A stretch of 38,342 nt of DNA from Alphaproteobacteria bacterium (GCA_030739735.1 JASLYQ010000024.1:2501-40842), one strand, 5' to 3'; counted from the first letter of the stretch, positions 1-14,884 are shown. Program-made: numbers and translations. The notes: a model not told the origin generated them from the sequence alone.

Positions 1-633
1 CGCGGCATCGATAGCCTAGCCGATCTTGATGACAAGGTGCTCGGCGTGGCCGGCGGCTCGGTCGACAAGAGCTGGCTGCTGCTGCGCGCCTACATGATCG
101 AGAAGCACGGTCTCGACCCAGCGGACATGGTCAAGGCCATACACGGTGCACCGCCATTATTACAGGAGAAGTTTTTACAGGGTGAGTTCGACGGCGTACT
201 AAACTTCTGGAACTACACCGCTCGGCTGCGTGCCGGCGACAGCGTCGAGTTGCTGCGCGTCCAAGACATTCTTCCCGCGCTCGGCGTAGCAGGTCGCTTG
301 CCGTTGATTGGATATGTCTTCCGAGAATCGTGGGCGGCCGAAAATCCTAAGGCTTTGCAGGGTTTCCTCGCAGCCTCGGCGGCAGCCCGCAAAATCCTTG
401 TTGAGTCTGATGACGAATGGGAGCGCTTGCGCCCAATGACCCGCGCCGAGAACGATGCGGTCTTGGCCTCACTCCGCCAGGGCTATCGAGACGGGGTGCC
501 GCAGACGAGCGCTGCCACACAACGCGATGCCATCGCAGCCGCTTTCGCCATCGTCGCCAAGCTTGGCGGGCGTGAACTGGTCGGTCAGAGCACCCAGCTC
601 GCTTCCGGAACCGTCTGGCAGGGGACGCCATGA
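1..633 (+). CDS. NitT/TauT-type ABC transporter substrate-binding protein (5' partial)
   Basis: The reading frame is open from the first base and 210 residues are visible, so the N-terminus and any signal peptide lie outside the window. The visible part resembles the C-terminal half of SsuA/THI5/NMT1-type periplasmic binding proteins, which deliver small organic solutes to an inner-membrane ABC importer. The stop overlaps the start of the permease gene by four bases (ATGA), and an ATPase follows, so the three form one import system. The ligand cannot be read from the sequence. The next genes belong to a PQQ-alcohol-dehydrogenase-associated ABC system, so a role near quinoprotein alcohol oxidation is inferred from context only. 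Confidence 0.75.
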   Translation, partial: RGIDSLADLDDKVLGVAGGSVDKSWLLLRAYMIEKHGLDPADMVKAIHGAPPLLQEKFLQGEFDGVLNFWNYTARLRAGDSVELLRVQDILPALGVAGRLPLIGYVFRESWAAENPKALQGFLAASAAARKILVESDDEWERLRPMTRAENDAVLASLRQGYRDGVPQTSAATQRDAIAAAFAIVAKLGGRELVGQSTQLASGTVWQGTP

Positions 634-1400
634 GACGAGCTGCCACCATAGCCCGCGGGCCAAGCCCCGCACAGTTGCGGCTGATCTCTTTCCTGTCGCT
701 GCTGATCATCTGGGAGGTTGCAGCACTGCTGTTGCAGTCGCGCGAGTTGCCGGACCTTTGGCGGGTGGCAAGCACGTTTTGGATCGAGCTCACCGACGGC
801 CCTCTGCTTAGCGACCTCGGCCTCACGCTTTTCCGAGTCTTTACCGCCTTTTTGCTGGCGATGGTCATCGGCACTGCCATCGGCATCGCCATGGGATTCA
901 ACCGCCGTCTCGATCACCTGTTCGACGGCTGGCTAATCCTGTTCCTAAATATCCCCGCCTTGGTCACGATTATCCTTTGCCTTCTCTGGTTCGGCATTAA
1001 CGAGGTTTCCTTTATCGTCGCTGTGGCCCTCAACAAAATTCCCAACGTCGTGGTCACCTTACGCGAGGGCGCCCGCGCCATAGACCGTGACCTGCTGCAA
1101 GTGGCGGAAATCTTTCGGATCGGTTGGAAACGGACATTCTTCCACTTTTTTCTGCCCCAGCTCTATCCCTATCTGATGGCTGCTGGACGCTCGGGCGTGG
1201 CGTTGATTTGGAAGATCGTGCTGGTGGTGGAGTTGCTCGGCGGCTCCAGCGGCATCGGCTTCCGCATGAACCATTTCTTCCAGTATTTCGATATTGCCGG
1301 CCTACTCGCCTACACCATGGCTTTTATCGTGGTCATGCTGCTGATCGAGATCGCTTTCGTTGAGCCGCTGGAGCGGCGCCTGACCCGGTGGCGAAAATGA
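630..1400 (+). CDS. ABC transporter permease, SsuC/TauC-like
   Basis: This 256-residue inner-membrane protein has about six hydrophobic segments. A typical binding-protein-dependent transport EAA loop lies at about residues 155-190, around 'LLQVAEIFRIGWKRTFF' followed by 'LPQLYPYLMAAGRS', where the ATPase docks. Length and layout fit the SsuC/TauC permease family. The ATG overlaps the stop of the binding-protein gene, and its own stop overlaps the ATPase ATG, which indicates translational coupling and a fixed stoichiometry. The transported solute is unknown; nitrate, taurine, sulfonate and other organic substrates are all known in this family. Confidence 0.88.
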   Translation: MRRAATIARGPSPAQLRLISFLSLLIIWEVAALLLQSRELPDLWRVASTFWIELTDGPLLSDLGLTLFRVFTAFLLAMVIGTAIGIAMGFNRRLDHLFDGWLILFLNIPALVTIILCLLWFGINEVSFIVAVALNKIPNVVVTLREGARAIDRDLLQVAEIFRIGWKRTFFHFFLPQLYPYLMAAGRSGVALIWKIVLVVELLGGSSGIGFRMNHFFQYFDIAGLLAYTMAFIVVMLLIEIAFVEPLERRLTRWRK

Positions 1401-2242
1401 CTGCCGCGGGCTCGCAGCTTTCGGTTCGCATTGACCGCAAGGCCTATCCCTCGATGACGACGGACGAACCTGACCGGCTTGCTATCGAGGGGCTGAGCTT
1501 CGATGCGGCCGCGGGTGAGTTCATTTGCATCGTGGGCCCCTCGGGCTGCGGCAAAACCACCATGCTCAATGTGGTTGCCGGCCTCGACCATACTGCCCAG
1601 GCCGCGATTGAGTTCGGCGGCAAAAGCGACGCGAAAACATCGCGCATTAGCTACATGTTCCAGACGCCACGGCTATTGCCGTGGGCGACGGTACGCGAGA
1701 ACGTGAGCCTTGTGCTACCGCCGCAAGAAGCCGATAGAGGCCGCGCCGAAGCCTTGCTTGAGGAAATGAAGCTCGGCGATCGTCTCGACGAATATCCCAA
1801 CCGGCTTTCCGGCGGCATGCAGCGGCGCGTGGCCCTTGCTCGCGCCTTTGTTACCGAACCGGAGTTGCTCTTGCTGGACGAGCCGTTTATCTCTCTCGAT
1901 GGGCCGGTCGCGGACCATTTGCGCGGCATATTACTGCAGCTCTGGCGGGCGCAACCGACGACAGTGCTATTCGTCACCCACGACTTGCGCGAGGCGATCT
2001 ATCTAGCGGATCGTATCCTGTTTCTCTCGGACGCCCCGTCGCGCGTGATCCTTGACGAACCCGTACCCATCAAGCGGCCGCGTGATGTCGAAGACCCGCG
2101 CATCGAGAACTACCGTCAGCAGCTTCTGGCGGGCAATCGCCTGATTCTGCAAGGTCTAAATTCCGTGTCGAATTCACCAGCGCTGGCATTGGGAAATAAA
2201 GAGCAACCGGGCGACCGGCACGTGAGGGAAGAACCGAGATGA
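1397..2242 (+). CDS. ABC transporter ATP-binding protein, SsuB/TauB-like
   Basis: This is the cytoplasmic ATPase of the NitT/TauT-type importer. From the ATG at 1397 the Walker A 'GPSGCGKT' is at about residues 47-54, the signature 'LSGGMQRR' at about 137, the Walker B 'LLLLDEP' at about 157-163, and the H-loop His at about 195 ('FVTHDLREA'). An in-frame GTG nine bases upstream is possible, but the ATG forms an ATGA overlap with the permease stop, the junction style used throughout this operon. The C-terminal tail of about 40 residues after the last core strand is not recognised. It overlaps the next ATPase gene by four bases. Confidence 0.88.
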   Translation: MTAAGSQLSVRIDRKAYPSMTTDEPDRLAIEGLSFDAAAGEFICIVGPSGCGKTTMLNVVAGLDHTAQAAIEFGGKSDAKTSRISYMFQTPRLLPWATVRENVSLVLPPQEADRGRAEALLEEMKLGDRLDEYPNRLSGGMQRRVALARAFVTEPELLLLDEPFISLDGPVADHLRGILLQLWRAQPTTVLFVTHDLREAIYLADRILFLSDAPSRVILDEPVPIKRPRDVEDPRIENYRQQLLAGNRLILQGLNSVSNSPALALGNKEQPGDRHVREEPR

Positions 2243-3000
2243 ACGAAGTTCCCACGGAGACGGTAACACGTTGGGCACTGAAAGCTCGCGACGTGCAGAA
2301 AAGCTACGGCCAGCGCAAGGCGCTCAACGGTACCAACATAGCGCTGTCTGAGGGCGAGTTTGCGGCACTGCTCGGCCCCAATGGCGCCGGCAAGACGACC
2401 CTCTTTCAGCTGCTGACAGGTTTGTTCGTGGCAGACGGCGGCAGCATCGAGGTCGACGGTACCAATATCAGCAACAACGCGGTGCCGGCGTTGTCGGGCA
2501 TCGGTGTGGTCTTCCAACAACCGACCCTCGACCTTGATCTCTCGGTGGCCGAGAACTTACGCTTCCACGCGAACCTACACGGCATCGGCGGTGCCGAGGG
2601 GCAGCAACGTGTCCACTATGAACTCGAAAAACTCAAACTCGCCGATCGCGCCAATGACAAGTCGCGCGCACTGTCGGGTGGCCAGCGCCGCCGGGTGGAG
2701 CTGGCACGAGCACTATTGCACCGGCCCAAGGTTCTGCTCATGGACGAGCCGACCGTCGGCCTCGACCCAACCAGCCGCCGCGACTTGCTGGCCTATGTTC
2801 TGGAACTCAGGCGCAAACGCAAGATGGCGATCCTTTGGGCTACACATCTGGTGGATGAGGCCGAAATGGCCGACCGTGTGGTGGTTCTGCACCGCGGCAG
2901 CGTCCTGACCAGCGGCAACCCGCAGGCTCTGATCGAGGAAACCGGAAAAGCCAATCTGCACGATGCCTTCGTCGCGCTGACCGGCCAGAAAGACAGCTAA
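2239..3000 (+). CDS. ABC transporter ATPase of the PQQ-dependent alcohol dehydrogenase-associated system
   Basis: This 253-residue ATPase has Walker A 'GPNGAGKT' at 46-53, signature 'LSGGQ' at 145-149, Walker B 'VLLMDEP' at about 165-171 and H-loop His203. It is of the drug/polysaccharide-exporter (CcmA/NodI-like) type rather than the importer type. Its neighbours are a YVTN beta-propeller, a dedicated periplasmic binding protein and an ABC-2 permease. That set is the conserved gene group found with PQQ-dependent alcohol dehydrogenases (PedA1A2BC-like in Pseudomonas putida). It should energise the ABC-2 permease encoded at 5273. Assignment to that system rests mainly on gene order and family likeness. 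Confidence 0.85.
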   Translation: MNEVPTETVTRWALKARDVQKSYGQRKALNGTNIALSEGEFAALLGPNGAGKTTLFQLLTGLFVADGGSIEVDGTNISNNAVPALSGIGVVFQQPTLDLDLSVAENLRFHANLHGIGGAEGQQRVHYELEKLKLADRANDKSRALSGGQRRRVELARALLHRPKVLLMDEPTVGLDPTSRRDLLAYVLELRRKRKMAILWATHLVDEAEMADRVVVLHRGSVLTSGNPQALIEETGKANLHDAFVALTGQKDS

Positions 3001-3030
3001 AACGATTCCACGAAGTGGGAGAAAGAGACT

Positions 3031-4017
3031 TTGCGAACTTCAATTCGATTAGCACTTGCCGGACTCATTATCTGTCTTACCGGCAACGGGATGACCTTTG
3101 CCGCCGGCACCGGCTATATCTTTGTCAGTAATGAATCCGACGACACAGTCAGCGTTATAGACGGCGGCAGTTTCGAGGTGATCAAGACTATCGCGACGGG
3201 CGATCGCCCCCGCGACATGCGCTTTAGCCCGGACCGCACACGCCTCTATGTTGCCACCAGTGGCGACGACCATATCGAAGTGATCAACATTGCGACGCTC
3301 GAGGTTGCAGGCACCATCGAGGCCGGTGAGGATCCGGAAATCTTCCAGCTTGACCCGTCTGGCAAGATCTTGGTGGTCGCCAACGAAGACGATAACGAGG
3401 TTACGGTCACCGACGTCGTCAGCGGCAAGCAGCTGCGCGTGATAGAGGATGTTGGTGTCGAGCCCGAGGGCATCACCTTTCGCCACGATGGCAAGGTTGT
3501 CTTCGTCACCTCGGAAGCCACCAATTCGGTCCTTATCATCGACCCCTGGGTCGGCAAAATTATTGACGAAGTGCTGGTCGGTAATCGGCCACGCCGCGGC
3601 ATCGTAACCCCTGATAACAAAGAATATTGGGTGACTAACGAACTCGGCGGCACGGTGAGCATTCTCGACGCCCAGACCTACTCACCACTCGGCCAAGTCT
3701 ATTTTGAAAAGCGGGGTATGCGCCAGGAAGATATCAATCCGGTCGACTTCGCCATGACCAAGGATGGCAAGACGGCCTATGTCACCCTCGGTCGTGCCCG
3801 CCACGTAGCGGTAGTCGACGTGGCCAGCCGCGAGGTTGAGGAATATATCCTCGCCGGCGACCGCGTCTGGGGCGCAGCGCTCAACCGGGACGAAAGCCTG
3901 CTCGTGGTGACGAATGGCGCCAGCGACGACGTCACCATCATCGACACTGACGACAACCGCGCGATCAACGCCATATCGGTGGGCCGCACACCGCACACAG
4001 TGCGGATCGACGACTGA
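3031..4017 (+). CDS. PQQ-catabolism-associated YVTN beta-propeller protein
   Basis: This 328-residue secreted protein has an N-terminal signal peptide (Arg3 and Arg6, then a hydrophobic stretch, probable cleavage near residues 24-25). About seven repeats of the form 'VSNESDDTVSVIDGGS', 'VATSGDDHIEVINIATLEV' and 'VTNGASDDVTIIDTDDN' follow, typical of a YVTN/NHL-like beta-propeller. The start is TTG, preceded by a 'gggagaaag' ribosome-binding site; no better start lies upstream of the signal peptide. The family is known as a companion of PQQ-dependent alcohol dehydrogenase operons, and its biochemical role is not established. A periplasmic scaffold or ligand-holding role is inference. Its stop overlaps the next gene (TGATG). 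Confidence 0.85.
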   Translation: MRTSIRLALAGLIICLTGNGMTFAAGTGYIFVSNESDDTVSVIDGGSFEVIKTIATGDRPRDMRFSPDRTRLYVATSGDDHIEVINIATLEVAGTIEAGEDPEIFQLDPSGKILVVANEDDNEVTVTDVVSGKQLRVIEDVGVEPEGITFRHDGKVVFVTSEATNSVLIIDPWVGKIIDEVLVGNRPRRGIVTPDNKEYWVTNELGGTVSILDAQTYSPLGQVYFEKRGMRQEDINPVDFAMTKDGKTAYVTLGRARHVAVVDVASREVEEYILAGDRVWGAALNRDESLLVVTNGASDDVTIIDTDDNRAINAISVGRTPHTVRIDD

Positions 4018-5207
4018 TGCGTAGACTACTCGCAAGCCTCGTCCTAGTGATGACAGCACCGCTAGCATTGGCCCAGGATGACGGTGCGCCCACCATGACC
4101 ATCGGCTACCTCGATATGGCTGAGGATCCTCGCTACGACGAGTGGGGCATCCATCCGGTCGATATTCGCTCCTCCACCGCGATCGTCGACCGCCGCGGGT
4201 TGGCGGGGGCAGAGCTTGGTATGGAAGATCTCTCTCGCCTGAAGCGCGTGGCCAAGACCTCGTTTGCAATGGATCATGCCCGAGTCACCAATACGGCCGG
4301 AATACTGAGCGAGATCGCGCGTATGCGTGAAGCGGGTGCCGCCGTTTTCGTGCTTGACGCCCCATCCAAAGTGTTAGTCGAAGTGTCCGCTGCTTTGGCC
4401 GCAGAGAATATTCTGCTGCTCAATGCGACTGCCATTGGAGACTCCTTGCGCAATGAAGATTGCCAAACAAATCTGTTTCATATAGCGGCCAGCCGGGCCA
4501 TGCTGACCGATGCTCTGGCACAGCATCTTAAGGAACGGAACTGGCAGGAGATTATCGTGCTTCAGGGTCCGCTGGCTGAGGACGTGGAGAGCGTGGCCGC
4601 GTTTACGCGCTCAGCCGACCTGTTCGGCCTGGAGATTGTCGATGCGCGACTCTTCGTGCTGGGAAACGATCCGCGGGCACGGGAGATGAACGATCTTGAT
4701 TTTCTGACCGGCTCCGAAGATTACGACGCTGTGTTCGTCGCGGACGTACACGGCGAGTTCGCCCTGAGTGTGCCGCATCGCACCCGCAAGCCGGCACCGG
4801 TCGTCGGCGCCTCCGGTCTGGTGCCGCGCATCTGGCATTGGTCCTACACCCGCCACGGCGCACCGCAGGTGCATGGCCGCTTCGAGCGCCTGCACAGCCG
4901 CCGGATGGGCGAGGCGGATTGGGGTGCCTGGGTCTCTATGAAGGCGATCGGCGAGGCGGTCGCCCGTACCAAATCGCGAAACGTCGCCGACATCCGCGAT
5001 TACTTCCGCAGTGAGAAGATGCGTGTCGACGGCTCCAAAGGCCCGGGCATGAGCTTCCGCATCTGGAACAACCAGCTGCGCCAGCCGATCATGCTAGCAA
5101 CCCAGGACTGGGTCAGTGCCCGCGCCCCCATCGAGGGCTTCAAACATCGCACCAACGACCTTGATACCTTGGGTCAGAGCGAGCGCGAAATGGCTTGCGG
5201 ATTTTGA
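4017..5207 (+). CDS. Periplasmic binding protein of the PQQ-associated ABC system
   Basis: This 396-residue protein has a clear signal peptide ending 'ALALAQ' (cleavage after about residue 19). The rest is a periplasmic-binding-protein type 1 (Leu/Ile/Val-like) fold, with recognisable segments 'AENILLLNATAIGDSLRNED' and 'NWQEIIVLQGP'. It matches the binding-protein family that travels with PQQ-dependent alcohol dehydrogenases. The pairing of an importer-style binding protein with an ABC-2 (exporter-style) permease is a peculiarity of this system. The ligand is unknown. A 65-base gap with no obvious hairpin separates it from the permease gene. Confidence 0.82.
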   Translation: MRRLLASLVLVMTAPLALAQDDGAPTMTIGYLDMAEDPRYDEWGIHPVDIRSSTAIVDRRGLAGAELGMEDLSRLKRVAKTSFAMDHARVTNTAGILSEIARMREAGAAVFVLDAPSKVLVEVSAALAAENILLLNATAIGDSLRNEDCQTNLFHIAASRAMLTDALAQHLKERNWQEIIVLQGPLAEDVESVAAFTRSADLFGLEIVDARLFVLGNDPRAREMNDLDFLTGSEDYDAVFVADVHGEFALSVPHRTRKPAPVVGASGLVPRIWHWSYTRHGAPQVHGRFERLHSRRMGEADWGAWVSMKAIGEAVARTKSRNVADIRDYFRSEKMRVDGSKGPGMSFRIWNNQLRQPIMLATQDWVSARAPIEGFKHRTNDLDTLGQSEREMACGF

Positions 5208-5272
5208 CGGTCACCTCCAAGAACGCTAATAGCTGAGACGACAATCGCATCCGAGGGGGAGGATAACCGATA

Positions 5273-6106
5273 ATGCGAGCCGATCATGCGGTCACGGCAC
5301 TCGTCGCCCTGAGCCGGCGCGAGGTGATCAAATTCTTGCAGCAAAAGGGCAGACTGTTTTCCGCCTTCGTCCGTCCGGCGCTATGGTTGTTTGTCTTCGC
5401 GCTCGGATTTCGGAACACCTTTGGTATCGATGCCGGCGATCCCTACCCGCAGCAGAATGTCGTCTACGAATACTACATCCTGCCGGGCCTCGCCTGCATG
5501 GTGCTATTATTCAGCGGCATGCAGTCGTCGCTGTCGATGGTTTACGACCGCGAGATGGGCATGATGCGGCTCTTGCTCACCGCACCGCTACCGCGTTGGT
5601 ACCTGCTCACGGCCAAGCTGCTTTCGGGCACTTTTCTATCTGTGATACAGGCGTATGCCTTCTTGCTGATCTGCCTGCCGTTCGACATGTTTACCGGCCT
5701 GCAAGTGGCGTTTGTCGATCCCTTGGGCTGGCTTTATGCGCTACCGGCATTGATCCTCACCGGCATGATGCTGGGTGCGCTCGGGCTGTTGCTCTCTGTG
5801 CATATCAAGCAGCTAGAAAACTTCGCCGGAACGATGAATTTCGTCATCTTCCCGATGTTCTTTATTTCACCTGCCCTGTTCCCGCTATGGCGACTGTTGG
5901 AGAACGGTGCCGATGTGGTTTGGTGGGTCGCCCAGTTCAATCCCTTCACCTATGGCGTACAGCTGGTGCGCTATGCCGGAGAAGGCCAGTTCTACGGCCT
6001 TGGCGCGCTCGTGGTTTGTGCCTGCACGGTGGCCTTCCTGATCGGCGCCATTTACGGCTACGACCCCCAGCGCGGCTTCGTGCGGCGTAGCCCGCAGACG
6101 GCCTAA
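5273..6106 (+). CDS. pedC: ABC-2 type permease, PedC-like
   Basis: This 277-residue inner-membrane protein has about six hydrophobic segments in the ABC-2 permease arrangement (cytoplasmic N-terminus, last helices near residues 180-265). Segments such as 'LPGLACMVLLFSGMQSSLS' and 'YDREMGMMRLLLTAPLPRWY' are typical of the ABC-2 core. With the ATPase at 2239 it should form the transporter of the PQQ-alcohol-dehydrogenase-associated system; in Pseudomonas putida the equivalent is PedC. The ATG follows a 'gggggagg' ribosome-binding site about 13 bases upstream. Direction of transport cannot be read from sequence: ABC-2 permeases usually export, but the locus also encodes a binding protein. Confidence 0.82.
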   Translation: MRADHAVTALVALSRREVIKFLQQKGRLFSAFVRPALWLFVFALGFRNTFGIDAGDPYPQQNVVYEYYILPGLACMVLLFSGMQSSLSMVYDREMGMMRLLLTAPLPRWYLLTAKLLSGTFLSVIQAYAFLLICLPFDMFTGLQVAFVDPLGWLYALPALILTGMMLGALGLLLSVHIKQLENFAGTMNFVIFPMFFISPALFPLWRLLENGADVVWWVAQFNPFTYGVQLVRYAGEGQFYGLGALVVCACTVAFLIGAIYGYDPQRGFVRRSPQTA

Positions 6107-7131: not shown

Positions 7132-8709
7132 GTGACCGAGCTGGTCTTCCGTGACGACGCCTATGCTCAGCGCTGCAAAGCCCGCGTGACGGGCGTCGAC
7201 AAGCGCAGCATTCGGCTCGACCGTACTGTCTTCTACGCCCGCGGCGGCGGCCAGCCGGGCGATATTGGGTGGTTGGAAGGCACCGACGGCAGCCGCGTCG
7301 GGATCGGCGATACGATCAAGGATGGCGATGACGTCCTCCATATCCCCACCGAGAGTGCCAGCCTCCCCACCGCAGGTGATGCCGTGACCGCGATTATCGA
7401 TTGGCCGCGGCGCTATCGCCTCATGCGCTCGCACAGCGCGCTGCATCTATTGTCGTCGCTGGTCGACGGTGCCGTGACCGGCGGTAGCGTCGGCCTTGAG
7501 AAGAGCCGTCTTGATTTCGATCTACCGGATATCTCGCTCGACAAGAAAGCACTGACCGAAGCTCTTAACCGCCTCGTTGCCGGGGACCACCAGGTCAGCG
7601 CATGCTGGATCAGTGATGCCGAGCTGGACGCCCAACCTGAATTGATCAAGACCATGTCGGTAGCACCGCCGCGCGGCGCCGGGAGAGTGCGCCTGATCGA
7701 GGTCGCCGGCATAGATATACAAGCCTGCGGCGGAACCCATATTTCCCGTACCGTCGAGATCGGGCATCTACGCATCGGCAAGATCGAGAACAAGGGCCGC
7801 CATAACCGTCGCATCAATCTAGTGCTGATGGACAAAAACAATAGGAAAGCAACTATGACCTACGTGAATCCAGATGCACTCGTCTCCACAGAATGGCTGG
7901 CGGCGCATCTTGATGGACCAGACGTGTGCGTGGTCGACGGTTCGTGGCACATGCCACAGCTTGAGCGCGACCCGCGCTCAGAATATGACGCGCGACATAT
8001 TCCGGACGCCGTCTTCTTCGATATCGATGAGATTGCCGATACCGACCCGGGCCTACCACATATGTTGCCTAACCCTGCCAAATTCGCCAGCCGCATGCGC
8101 GCACTCGGTCTTGGCGACGGCACGCGGGTCATTGTCTATGACACCACCGGCATGGGCAGCGCGGCACGCGTCTGGTGGACCTTTCGTGTTTTCGGTCATG
8201 ACGATGTTGCGGTGCTCGACGGCGGCTTGCCCAAGTGGTTAGACGAAGGACGACCCATCAATGACCAAAGGGTTTTCCCGCAGGAGCGGCGCTTGACCGC
8301 CCGGCGCAACGGGCTCTTGGTGCGCGATATCGACCAGGTCCTGAGCAATGTGAAGAGCCAGCGTGAACAGGTGCTCGATGCCCGTAGCGCCGGACGCTTC
8401 GCGGCGACCGAGCCAGAGCCCCGGGCGGGACTGCGTGGCGGCCGTATTCCGGGCTCGTTCAACCTGCCATTCCCCGAGCTTTACGAGCCCGAGAACAAGA
8501 CTATGAAGCCGGCCGACGAGTTGCGGGCGCTTTATGACAAAAGCGGCATCAACTGCGACGGCCCCATTGTCACAAGCTGCGGCAGCGGTGTCACAGCCTG
8601 CATTCTAGCGCTTGGGCTCTACCTCATCGGCAAGACCGACGTGGCAGTCTATGACGGCTCGTGGACCGAATGGGGCGGTTGCGAAGACACACCCATCGAC
8701 CAAGGCTAA
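7132..8709 (+). CDS. Alanyl-tRNA editing domain (AlaX) fused in frame to 3-mercaptopyruvate sulfurtransferase (SseA)
   Basis: This 525-residue frame joins two enzymes normally encoded separately. Residues 1-235 are an AlaX-type editing domain that would hydrolyse mischarged Ser/Gly-tRNA(Ala). It carries the zinc motif as H101-x3-H105 ('HSALH') and C199-x3-H203 ('CGGTH'). Residues 242-525 form a complete two-domain rhodanese/3-mercaptopyruvate sulfurtransferase with active-site loop 'SCGSGVTA' (Cys483 of the fusion). The GTG start lies four bases after the cysteine synthase stop and gives the usual 'VTELVFRDDAY' AlaX beginning. Only about six residues link the domains, and Met242 is preceded by a ribosome-binding-like 'aggaaag'. 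A one-base change in the A5 run before it would restore a TAG, so a true fusion, slippage or a sequencing error are all possible. Confidence 0.75.
   Translation: MTELVFRDDAYAQRCKARVTGVDKRSIRLDRTVFYARGGGQPGDIGWLEGTDGSRVGIGDTIKDGDDVLHIPTESASLPTAGDAVTAIIDWPRRYRLMRSHSALHLLSSLVDGAVTGGSVGLEKSRLDFDLPDISLDKKALTEALNRLVAGDHQVSACWISDAELDAQPELIKTMSVAPPRGAGRVRLIEVAGIDIQACGGTHISRTVEIGHLRIGKIENKGRHNRRINLVLMDKNNRKATMTYVNPDALVSTEWLAAHLDGPDVCVVDGSWHMPQLERDPRSEYDARHIPDAVFFDIDEIADTDPGLPHMLPNPAKFASRMRALGLGDGTRVIVYDTTGMGSAARVWWTFRVFGHDDVAVLDGGLPKWLDEGRPINDQRVFPQERRLTARRNGLLVRDIDQVLSNVKSQREQVLDARSAGRFAATEPEPRAGLRGGRIPGSFNLPFPELYEPENKTMKPADELRALYDKSGINCDGPIVTSCGSGVTACILALGLYLIGKTDVAVYDGSWTEWGGCEDTPIDQG
7840..7857 (+). 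promoter_or_regulatory. Internal ribosome-binding site and ATG for separate SseA translation
   Basis: Inside the fused frame, 'aggaaag' lies about five to six bases before an in-frame ATG at 7855. From this ATG a standard 284-residue SseA begins ('MTYVNPDALVSTEWL'). An out-of-frame TAG sits at the same place. This is what an ordinary alaX stop / sseA start junction looks like, so SseA is probably also made alone. Confidence 0.55.
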
Positions 8710-11838: not shown

Positions 11839-12222
11839 GTGGGCAGACAGCGCAAGCTTCGCATGCGGATTCTTTTCGGCCCCGAGATTGCGGTCGGGCC
11901 CGGTAAGGTCGCGCTGCTCAAGGCAATTGGCAAGACCGGCTCGATATCGGCCGCGGCGCGCGAACTCGGCATGTCGTACCGCCGCGCCTGGCTGCTTTGT
12001 GACACCATGAACCGCTGCTTTCGCTCCCCCGTGGTCGAGGCCAATCCCGGCGGGCGCGGTGGCGGCGGAGCGAAGGTGACGGCGCTCGGTGACGAGGTGC
12101 TGGCACGCTACGACGCCATGGAACGCACCGCGATCGAGAGTGTAAGCGAGCAAATCAGAAACTTTTCAACGCTTCTTTCGGACGATCCGCCGACCACCGA
12201 CGATGAGGAGCGTAATGCTTGA
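11839..12222 (+). CDS. modE: ModE-family molybdate regulator, DNA-binding domain only
   Basis: This 127-residue protein is a LysR-like winged helix-turn-helix of the ModE N-terminal type ('GSISAAARELGMSYRRAWLL', about residues 34-53). Escherichia coli ModE is about twice as long and carries two molybdate-binding Mop/TOBE domains; here the protein ends after the DNA-binding domain and a short acidic tail. Short ModE-like proteins of this kind are known in alphaproteobacteria. The GTG start lies four bases after the DUF192 stop. Its last codons overlap a promoter that carries a canonical ModE operator in front of modABC, so it most likely represses that operon; how it senses molybdate is unclear. 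Confidence 0.85.
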   Translation: MGRQRKLRMRILFGPEIAVGPGKVALLKAIGKTGSISAAARELGMSYRRAWLLCDTMNRCFRSPVVEANPGGRGGGGAKVTALGDEVLARYDAMERTAIESVSEQIRNFSTLLSDDPPTTDDEERNA

Positions 12223-12253
12223 CAACAAGCGTTATATTTTTCTATATATATCG
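12219..12253 (+). promoter_or_regulatory. modABC promoter with overlapping ModE operator
   Basis: A -35 'TTGACA' (12219-12224, sharing the modE stop codon) and a -10 'TATATA' (12243-12248) are separated by 18 bases. Laid over the -10 is 'CGTTATAT' (12230-12237), eight bases, then 'ATATATCG' (12246-12253), an imperfect inverted repeat. The E. coli modA operator, as I recall it, has the same 8-8-8 layout (CGTTATAT, eight bases, ACATAACG). Bound ModE would block RNA polymerase, giving repression when molybdate is ample. Confidence 0.8.
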
Positions 12254-12314
12254 ATCACTATATTCGAGGATATACAACAGCCTTCAAACGTCAGGTCGCG
12301 GCCGGAGTTATCTG

Positions 12315-13103
12315 ATGTGTCGTTCCTTGATCCCCCTTGACCGTACACCCTTCCGCTTAATCGGCGGAAGGGTGTGTTTCTTTTTGTGTCTCCTCGGCTG
12401 GATTTCCCCCGTTTGGGCGGAGCAGGTGCTTGTTTTCGCCGCCGCCAGCACGCGCGACGCGGTGTTAGAGGCTATAGAGGTGCATGACGGCAACGTGGTC
12501 GCCTCCTTTGCGGCAAGCTCTACCCTGGCACGGCAGATCGAGAACGGTGCACCAGCGGCCCTGTTCCTGTCCGCCAACGACGCCTGGATGAACCGCCTCG
12601 ATTCCCTCGACCTTCTAGAGATGGGCTCGCGACACAACTGGCTCGGCAACCGCCTAGCGTTGCTAGCCTCACCTGACACCGAACCGCCAGTGGGCGCCAT
12701 TGCACCCGGCTTCCCACTCGCTGACTGGCTCGGCGACGGCAGGCTCGGCCTGGCGGACCCTGACCATGTGCCAGCCGGGCGATATGCCCGCGCCGCACTC
12801 GAAAGCCTGGGGATATGGCAGGCTATCGCGCCAAGGAGCGTGCGCGCGCCCAATGTGCGTGCGGCCCTGGCCCTAATAGAGCGCGGCGAGACACCGCTTG
12901 GAATTGTCTATGAGAGCGATGCCCGCGTCTGTGCCACCTGCCGCCTTGTCGCGGTCCTTCCCGCTGACAGTCACGCGCCCATCCGTTATCCCCTGGCGCT
13001 CATCAAGGGACAGGCGAGCGAGGCGGCACGCGCCTTCCATGCCTTTCTCTTGACCAAGGCAGCCGCCGAAATTTTCGAAAGCTACGGCTTCGTAGTGCAT
13101 TGA
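12315..13103 (+). CDS. modA: Molybdate ABC transporter substrate-binding protein ModA
   Basis: This is the periplasmic molybdate/tungstate-binding protein feeding ModBC. Characteristic segments are 'VFAAASTRDAV', 'SFAASSTLARQIENGAPAAL' and 'LADPDHVPAGRYARAAL'. From the ATG at 12315 (behind 'cggag') the protein has 262 residues, a normal length, with a rather long signal peptide whose hydrophobic core is 'VCFFLCLLGWISPVWA'. The longer frame beginning at 12219 is rejected because that TTG is the promoter -35. A strong hairpin lies inside the signal-peptide codons, so a GTG at 12372 giving a 16-residue signal peptide is an alternative. The modB start lies at or just after its stop. Confidence 0.85.
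   Translation: MCRSLIPLDRTPFRLIGGRVCFFLCLLGWISPVWAEQVLVFAAASTRDAVLEAIEVHDGNVVASFAASSTLARQIENGAPAALFLSANDAWMNRLDSLDLLEMGSRHNWLGNRLALLASPDTEPPVGAIAPGFPLADWLGDGRLGLADPDHVPAGRYARAALESLGIWQAIAPRSVRAPNVRAALALIERGETPLGIVYESDARVCATCRLVAVLPADSHAPIRYPLALIKGQASEAARAFHAFLLTKAAAEIFESYGFVVH
12345..12385 (+). terminator. Terminator-like hairpin in the modA leader (candidate attenuator)
   Basis: Arms 12345-12356 ('ACACCCTTCCGC') and 12364-12375 ('GCGGAAGGGTGT') are perfectly complementary over 12 bp with a 7-base loop, followed directly by 'gtttcttttt'. This is the form of a plus-strand intrinsic terminator. It lies about 90 bases downstream of the predicted transcription start and within the modA reading frame if the 12315 ATG is used. 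The 3' arm also contains the purine-rich 'GGCGGAAGGG'. It may limit modABC transcription or translation. Confidence 0.6.
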
Positions 13104-13108
13104 CAGGC

Positions 13109-13795
13109 ATGCTCAGCCCTGAGGAATGGCAGGCCATACGGCTCAGCCTGCAGGTGGCGTTCTTGAGCGTCAGCGTCAGCCTGCCGTTGGGTATTCTGTT
13201 TGCCTGGGTGCTGGCCCGGCAGCGCTTCCCCGGCAAGACCCTGCTTGACGGCATCATCCATTTGCCGTTGGTTCTGCCGCCGGTTGTCGTAGGCTATGCG
13301 CTATTGGTGCTGTTCGGCCGCAACGGTGCGCTCGGCGCACCGCTTCACGACTGGTTCGGCGTGACGATTGCCTTCACCTGGCAGGGCGCTGCCGTAGCCG
13401 CCGCCGTCATGGGCTTCCCGCTCATGGTCCGCGCCATTCGCCTGTCGCTCGAAAGTATGGACCGCGGCCTAGAGGAAGCCGCGCGCACCCTGGGCGCCGG
13501 ACGCGTCGCGGTCTTCCGCACAGTCACCCTGCCGCTTATCGCACCGGGCGTGCTGACTGGCGTGATCCTCGCCTTTGCCCGCAGCTTGGGCGAGTTTGGC
13601 GCCACCATCACCTTCGTGTCCAACATTCCCGGCGAGACCCGCACCCTACCCATCGCCCTTTACACCTACACCCAGGTGCCTGGAGGCGATGCGCAGGCGC
13701 TGCGCCTAGCGGCAATCGCCGTGGTCTTGGCTCTGGTGGCTCTTCTGGGCTCGGAGATTCTCGCGCGGCGGATGCGCGCGCATATCGGAAACTGA
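13109..13795 (+). CDS. modB: Molybdate ABC transporter permease ModB
   Basis: This 228-residue inner-membrane channel has about five to six hydrophobic segments. The ATPase-docking EAA loop is at about 122-145 ('LEEAARTLGAGRVAVFRTV'), followed by 'SLGEFGATITFVSNIPGETR', the usual ModB/CysT signature. The ATG at 13109 gives the family-typical 'MLSPEEWQAIRLSLQVAF' beginning; a TTG at 13100 overlapping the modA stop is in frame but less likely. It sits between modA and modC, three bases before modC. Confidence 0.92.
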   Translation: MLSPEEWQAIRLSLQVAFLSVSVSLPLGILFAWVLARQRFPGKTLLDGIIHLPLVLPPVVVGYALLVLFGRNGALGAPLHDWFGVTIAFTWQGAAVAAAVMGFPLMVRAIRLSLESMDRGLEEAARTLGAGRVAVFRTVTLPLIAPGVLTGVILAFARSLGEFGATITFVSNIPGETRTLPIALYTYTQVPGGDAQALRLAAIAVVLALVALLGSEILARRMRAHIGN

Positions 13796-13798
13796 CAT

Positions 13799-14884
13799 AT
13801 GCTTGCGCTCGACATCAGCCATCGCCTTGGCAACTTCACGCTCGACGCCACACTATCGGTTACCGAGCCCGGTATAATGGCCTTGTTTGGCCGCTCTGGC
13901 TCCGGAAAGAGCACGCTACTCAACAGCATTGCCGGATTGCGGCGCCCTGACGCCGGACGCATTGTAGTAGATGGCCGAGTTTTGTTCGACTCCGAGATGA
14001 ACGTCAATGTTTCGCCAGAGCGCCGGCGTCTAGGTTATGTCTTCCAGGATGCGCGACTATTTCCCCACCTTAGCGTGCGCGGCAATCTCGATTATGGCTT
14101 GCGGCGTGTATCGCCGGCGCGTCGCCACGTCGCCTACGATCAGGTTGTAGCATTGCTTGACCTCGAGCCGCTGCTCGAGCGTCGCCCGGCGAAGCTCTCG
14201 GGTGGCGAAAAGCAGCGCATCGCCATCGGCCGCGCCTTATTGGCGAGCCCGGGATTGCTGTTAATGGACGAGCCGCTGGCCTCGCTCGATGCGGCACGCA
14301 AGGCGGAGATTTTACCCTTCGTCGAACGCCTGCATGGCGAGTTCGGAACGCCTATCGTCTATGTCAGCCATGCTATAGGCGAAGTCCTCCAGCTGGCCGA
14401 TACCATCGCCGTGATGGAGGCGGGCCGCGTGCGGGCCTATGGCGATGTCGAAACCATCACCAGCCGGCCAGACCTCGCCGATGCGGGCTTTGGCGATGTT
14501 GGCACGGTTATAGCCGCCCGTATCGTTGGCCACGATACCGACAACGGCATCAGCGAGCTGGAAACCGGCGCCGGCAATTTGCTTATCGGCCGCCTCGATG
14601 CACCCGTGGGCGCAGCTGTGCGCCTGCGCCTGCGGGCCCGCGACGTGGCGCTGGCCCTGGACGCACCCGAGCGCATGAGCGTGCTCAATGTTTTTGACGG
14701 TGCTATCGTCGCCATCGAACCCCGCGCCGAAGGCGTTGTCGACGTAGCCGTCGAAATCGCGCCAGGCATGCGACTCTGGTCCGAGGTTACGCGCCTTGCC
14801 CTTGCCAATCTCGGACTCACGCCCGGCACCCATGTCCACACTCTGATCAAAAGCGTCGCCATCGAGCGCTACCCAAGGAGCTAG
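13799..14884 (+). CDS. modC: Molybdate ABC transporter ATP-binding protein ModC
   Basis: The 361-residue cytoplasmic ATPase energises molybdate import. Walker A 'GRSGSGKS' is at 31-38, the signature 'LSGGEKQR' at 133-140 and Walker B 'LLLMDEPLASLD' at about 153-164. A C-terminal TOBE/Mop-like domain (about 290-358) can bind oxyanion and gives regulatory trans-inhibition in some ModC proteins. That matters here because the local ModE has no such domain. The ATG is three bases after the modB stop (TGACATATG). Confidence 0.93.
   Translation: MLALDISHRLGNFTLDATLSVTEPGIMALFGRSGSGKSTLLNSIAGLRRPDAGRIVVDGRVLFDSEMNVNVSPERRRLGYVFQDARLFPHLSVRGNLDYGLRRVSPARRHVAYDQVVALLDLEPLLERRPAKLSGGEKQRIAIGRALLASPGLLLMDEPLASLDAARKAEILPFVERLHGEFGTPIVYVSHAIGEVLQLADTIAVMEAGRVRAYGDVETITSRPDLADAGFGDVGTVIAARIVGHDTDNGISELETGAGNLLIGRLDAPVGAAVRLRLRARDVALALDAPERMSVLNVFDGAIVAIEPRAEGVVDVAVEIAPGMRLWSEVTRLALANLGLTPGTHVHTLIKSVAIERYPRS

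Follow-up and report, generated by a model that had tools for sequence, protein, structure and literature searches.

The window, that is the whole stretch of 38,342 nt that was analysed, starts at base 2501 of its contig, which continues 2.5 kb upstream. Positions 1-6106 of the window hold seven genes in a row on the + strand, and cysK starts 19 bp past the last of them:

1..633, + strand: PqqT-like periplasmic binding protein (NMT1/NitT fold), partial; phmmer match to PDB 9b1u (E=4e-37), blastp, PF09084
630..1400, + strand: importer permease (BPD_transp_1) of the PqqT-like system; PF00528, below the SaoP, SsuC and TauC model cut-offs
1388..2242, + strand: importer ATPase of the PqqT-like system; PF00005, below the cut-off of all specific NCBIfam importer models shown
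2239..3000, + strand: PedB/LutE-type ABC-2 transporter ATPase; TIGR03864, above cut-off
3031..4017, + strand: PedA2-type secreted YVTN beta-propeller with a TTG start; TIGR03866, above cut-off
4017..5207, + strand: PedA1/LutA-type periplasmic binding protein; TIGR03863 (E=2e-111), below cut-off; PF13458
5273..6106, + strand: PedC/LutF-type ABC-2 permease; TIGR03861, above cut-off; PF01061
6126..7127, + strand: cysK (cysteine synthase A); NF007989, above cut-off, and synteny

Four of the six junctions within the block overlap (ATGA at 630, 1397 and 2239, TGATG at 4015-4019), and the remaining two are gaps of 30 and 65 bp. The importer ATPase starts either at the GTG at 1388 or at the ATG at 1397, the latter giving the ATGA overlap. 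The first gene is truncated at the start of the window, with its 3′ two thirds present and its 5′ end outside. In relatives the block begins with the binding-protein gene, and complete copies are 336-337 aa long. A sequence-only reading of this DNA had reported seven consecutive genes with mostly ATGA or TGATG junctions, and both the overlaps and the recurrence of the gene order in relatives bear this out. It had also called the two transport systems fused; the genes are linked and none is actually fused. The seven genes are probably co-transcribed as a single transcript. cysK is found in the same position in the genomes G001, G004, G007 and G008, and was seen downstream of the block in the host family only.

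Further downstream, a single 525-aa frame (7132-8709) combines an AlaXM-like tRNA-editing domain with a 3-mercaptopyruvate sulfurtransferase. In G004, G007 and G008 each of the two has a gene of its own, and the joined frame is either a true fusion or the product of a sequencing frameshift. At 11839-14884 a gene for a ModE-domain regulator is followed by what appear, by eye, to be molybdate ABC transporter genes. A ModE-like gene was also seen by eye near the Ped locus of family f76 (L131).

The first three genes had been read as a NitT/TauT-type importer. At the level of the superfamily this match stands, and the specific assignment is now PqqT-like. The fragment in the window is 37% identical to PqqT over 198 aa (blastp), and a full-length relative is 40% identical over 293 residues. 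The sole PDB matches of this relative are 9b1u/9b1v, which are identical in sequence, and 9ooz (E=4e-57); the fragment matches the same entries. 9B1U and 9B1V are structures of PqqT from Methylorubrum extorquens AM1, a periplasmic protein that binds PQQ with a Kd of 50 nM and aids its capture. Judged by homology, the 'NitT/TauT' binding protein is a relative of PqqT. A lysine within a DK(S/N)W motif, DKSW in the window, is invariant in 21/21 sequences (PqqT and 20 relatives, the window included). This residue may be K142 of the PqqT PQQ site, as would be expected if the signal peptide is about 27 residues long. The lysine is absent from two other NMT1-type proteins of the host genome. Against the PqqT profile these two reach 17.6 and 0.3 bits, compared with at least 293 bits for the class members listed. 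Moreover, among the matches listed in the class search none lay between 293 bits and the threshold.

The trio of binding protein, permease and ATPase is present in the window and in most of the family, class and plasmid loci examined. Taken together, the importer beside the lanthanide-transport genes is most likely a PQQ-cofactor importer of the PqqT type. Of the substrates suggested earlier (a metal carrier, PQQ or an alcohol-derived solute), PQQ is the one that fits the PqqT homology, and its transport is predicted on that basis. The coupled importer, which the sequence-only reading had left unexplained, was indeed the interesting part of the locus.

The last four genes match TIGR03864, TIGR03866, TIGR03863 and TIGR03861, the PQQ-alcohol-dehydrogenase-associated ABC set. 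All four components are present, and the resemblance to PedA1A2BC noted in the sequence-only reading was correct. Three of the four exceed their NCBIfam cut-offs: PedB with 321 bits (cut-off 302), PedA2 with 329 (287) and PedC with 304 (241). PedA1 matches its family with E=2e-111 yet reaches 372 bits against a cut-off of 414. By sequence, neither PedA1 (best E=0.02) nor PedC has a convincing relative in the PDB. In Pseudomonas putida, PedA1A2BC is required for growth with PedH at nanomolar lanthanum and not for growth via the Ca2+ enzyme PedE; deletion of pedA1A2BC raises the La3+ requirement 100-fold and leaves PedE-dependent growth unaffected. In M. extorquens, lutA, lutE and lutF mutants accumulate La as periplasmic deposits. 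Because of these published mutants of Ped/Lut homologues, the PedA1A2BC/LutABEF-type set described here is likely to be a lanthanide transporter.

The direction of transport by PedBC is probably import. The reverse has some appeal, given that PedC is an ABC-2 permease, that the ATPase and permease are DrrA/DrrB-like and that a PQQ exporter is not yet established, the literature discussing a different candidate, META1p2359. PedBC would then export PQQ or a lanthanide chelator to the periplasm, the PqqT importer would recover PQQ, and PedA1 and PedA2 would act as periplasmic acceptors, in the manner of NosD with NosFY. We regard such an arrangement as very improbable. The periplasmic La deposits of the lut mutants are a sign of blocked import, and PedE-dependent growth goes on without pedA1A2BC, which means that PQQ export persists.

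Both G001 and G008 carry the full order binding protein-permease-ATPase-PedB-PedA2-PedA1-PedC, and the seven genes recur in a second family, f76. The order is nearly complete in G006, where PedC is cut by the contig end, and in G003, where PedA2 was not found, and it is partly seen in G007; two of the host-family genomes show losses from the block. Upstream of the block lie a DUF1489 gene and carboxylase genes in G001, and a YccV-like gene and an MsbA-like gene on the opposite strand in G008. The seven-gene arrangement is not a matter of chance, since further members of the family, and f76, share it.

Beyond these families the two systems also travel together. In a class sample of 385 genomes PedC was found in 56, PqqT in 45 and both in 42, giving PedC in 42/45 PqqT genomes (Fisher 2.7e-40), and the association is kept when only genomes with a PQQ dehydrogenase are considered (40/3/12/45, p=1e-13); these genomes are related by descent, so that the Fisher values overstate independence and serve as no more than a guide, and most of the loci behind the PqqT profile adjoin PedC. 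In a phylum sample of 383 genomes all 34 PqqT genomes carry PedC. PqqT and PedC lie within 15 kb of each other in 21/42 genomes of the class sample and 23/34 of the phylum sample, and linkage at this distance spans 13 families of the class sample and is also seen beyond the class. Co-occurrence of the importer with the PQQ-ABC genes, proposed earlier as a check, is therefore strong, and the importer proved to be strongly conserved beside the Ped set, where a lack of conservation had been named as evidence to the contrary.

This distribution bears on a simpler reading of the first three genes, in which they encode an ordinary taurine, sulfonate or nitrate importer that feeds the downstream sulfur genes, with PedA1A2BC inserted by chance. 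The NitT/TauT superfamily match is compatible with it, as are the sulfur genes found downstream in the family (cysK, mercaptopyruvate sulfurtransferase and cystathionine lyase), some of which are present in f76 too. However, the binding protein is far under the relevant cut-offs, scoring 20 bits against 304 for TauA (TIGR01729) and 19 against 164 for SsuA (TIGR01728); these scores come from the window fragment, which is without its first third, and the full-length relative was checked against the PDB, where PqqT is the only relative. Moreover, PqqT tracks PedC across the phylum, and many loci adjoin PQQ dehydrogenase or pqq genes and not cysK. A taurine or sulfonate importer is thus improbable, and was rejected on scores and distribution.

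Neither the window nor the flanking sequence fetched for host-family relatives has a quinoprotein gene. The sequence-only reading had held that the lack of such a neighbour would count against it; the lack is real locally, whereas other families have quinoprotein or pqq genes beside the block. The PqqT importer adjoins pqqBCE at four loci (L046, L099, L137 and L177) and a PQQ dehydrogenase at seven (L046, L050, L095, L117, L122, L191 and L192). An adjacent quinoprotein gene is the usual context of the Ped/Lut families and not a condition of membership. Elsewhere in its own genome the host encodes five PQQ dehydrogenases, all with a D-x-D motif (WDYDG, WDYDG, YDYDS, YDYDA and WDWDE). D-x-D is a mark of lanthanide enzymes, established for XoxF and PedH. 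The first WDYDG dehydrogenase was aligned to XoxF (4mae/6dam) and the YDYDS dehydrogenase to 6zcw/6dam, as XoxF and PedH comparisons. The host also has pqqB, pqqC and pqqE, all above cut-off, on contig C4, and the idea of a PQQ-scavenging auxotroph was therefore rejected.

Two further genes for PqqE-like radical SAM proteins, above the PqqE cut-off, are present on contig C1 of the host genome (L094:8396-10777). They lie near a PQQ dehydrogenase and apart from the pqqB-pqqC-pqqE cluster on C4.

One oddity of the block concerns PedB. In families f1, f30, f76, f79, f131 and f162 it comes immediately after the gene for the importer ATPase, and in f79 and f162 the other Ped genes are separated from it. 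G037 has the PqqT trio, PedB and a PQQ dehydrogenase together (L179:5765-9083), and neither PedC nor PedA1 was detected in that genome. In G004 the locus on contig C57 has suffered a PedA2-PedA1-PedC deletion, in which PedA1 and most of PedC were lost; remnants of PedA2 and PedC lie between PedB and cysK (L178:5303-5837), and the importer, PedB and cysK are retained. Another PedA2-PedA1-PedC set, without PedB beside it, is found on contig C98 of the same genome. Since G037 and G004 keep the importer and PedB without the full Ped set, the pairing of importer and Ped genes is not obligate. PedB could have a role with the importer.

The persistence of PedB behind the importer ATPase in six families, including cases in which PedC lies apart, has been deleted or was not detected, would suit a single machine made of the importer and PedA1A2BC, with a PQQ-lanthanide complex as its one substrate and PqqT capturing PQQ.Ln. 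In addition, 9B1V holds both PQQ and Gd(III) in PqqT, and wild-type PQQ-PqqT binds La3+ with a Kd of about 6 uM. However, a micromolar affinity for La3+ is weak, loss of pedA1A2BC in P. putida affects lanthanide-dependent growth only and not PQQ-dependent growth with Ca2+, and the two systems lie apart in about half of the genomes. We therefore consider one machine unlikely. We give equally little credence to PQQ serving as a lanthanide carrier, with the importer and PedA1A2BC coupled, PedB working with the importer, and PQQ and Ln3+ entering together or being exchanged.

We favour, with reasonable confidence, two systems with separate cargoes, the operon being a probable cofactor-acquisition locus in which PQQ salvage by the PqqT importer is joined to lanthanide uptake by PedA1A2BC, in the service of lanthanide-type PQQ dehydrogenases, periplasmic enzymes that oxidise alcohols. 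The binding protein would capture PQQ that was synthesised in the cytoplasm and escaped through the periplasm, or PQQ from outside, and the permease and ATPase would pump it into the cytoplasm. The PedA1A2BC/LutABEF-type system would move lanthanide, perhaps chelated, across the inner membrane, where it may serve sensing, storage or further use. Joint expression would balance both halves of the active-site cofactor, PQQ and Ln3+. The dehydrogenase and PQQ biosynthesis genes are located elsewhere in the host genome. Linkage on one transcript fits this proposal because the enzyme cofactor consists of PQQ plus Ln3+. Gene content, homology, conservation and co-occurrence all point to the pairing, with PQQ and lanthanide as the predicted substrates.

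A TonB-dependent receptor plug has a single match in the whole host genome (contig C10:67742-68080, L193). This lone receptor is a candidate for outer-membrane entry of PQQ or a lanthanide chelate.

The conserved operon bears on how periplasmic lanthanide enzymes obtain the two halves of their cofactor. It offers a concrete gene set that ties a PqqT-type importer to a lanthanide transporter, and it gives names to genes for which many genomes have no annotation beyond NitT/TauT or generic ABC components. Moreover, the pairing suggests that PQQ salvage accompanies lanthanide use. We found no description of the joint PqqT-importer/Ped operon in the open-licence literature, and earlier notice in subscription papers is possible; in the accessible literature we likewise found no description of an inner-membrane partner of PqqT.

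The binding protein resembles PqqT of M. extorquens AM1 in its homology over the full length, its DK(S/N)W lysine and its NMT1/NitT-type fold. Unlike PqqT as known, it is encoded first in an operon that also holds a permease and ATPase of its own and PedB-A2-A1-C, and its PQQ binding is predicted. The last four genes share with PedA1A2BC of P. putida KT2440 and LutABEF of M. extorquens AM1 a binding protein, a YVTN propeller, an ABC-2 ATPase and an ABC-2 permease. They differ from both in being joined to a PqqT-type importer, in their order B-A2-A1-C, in a PedA1 under its family cut-off and in the absence of an adjacent quinoprotein, regulator or TonB receptor in the host family.

Because a search of genome contigs with a single permease sequence gave remote homologues only (23-27% identity), named relatives were drawn from plasmid records, all from Alphaproteobacteria, which is presumably the class of the host too. 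Phaeobacter gallaeciensis pGal_A255 and Pseudosulfitobacter pseudonitzschiae P1 carry PedA1A2BC beside a PqqT-like protein, as here. Unlike the host operon, both of these roseobacter plasmid copies are without a recognised importer permease, having a PqqT-like gene and an ATPase (L188:8947-10604 and L189:9935-11548), and the roseobacter PqqT may be a PQQ buffer instead of part of an importer. On Rhizobium leguminosarum pSK01, PedA1-A2-B-C, the PqqT trio and a methanol/ethanol PQQ dehydrogenase stand in a row. All three of these alphaproteobacterial plasmids carry a PQQ methanol/ethanol dehydrogenase, in contrast to the host operon.
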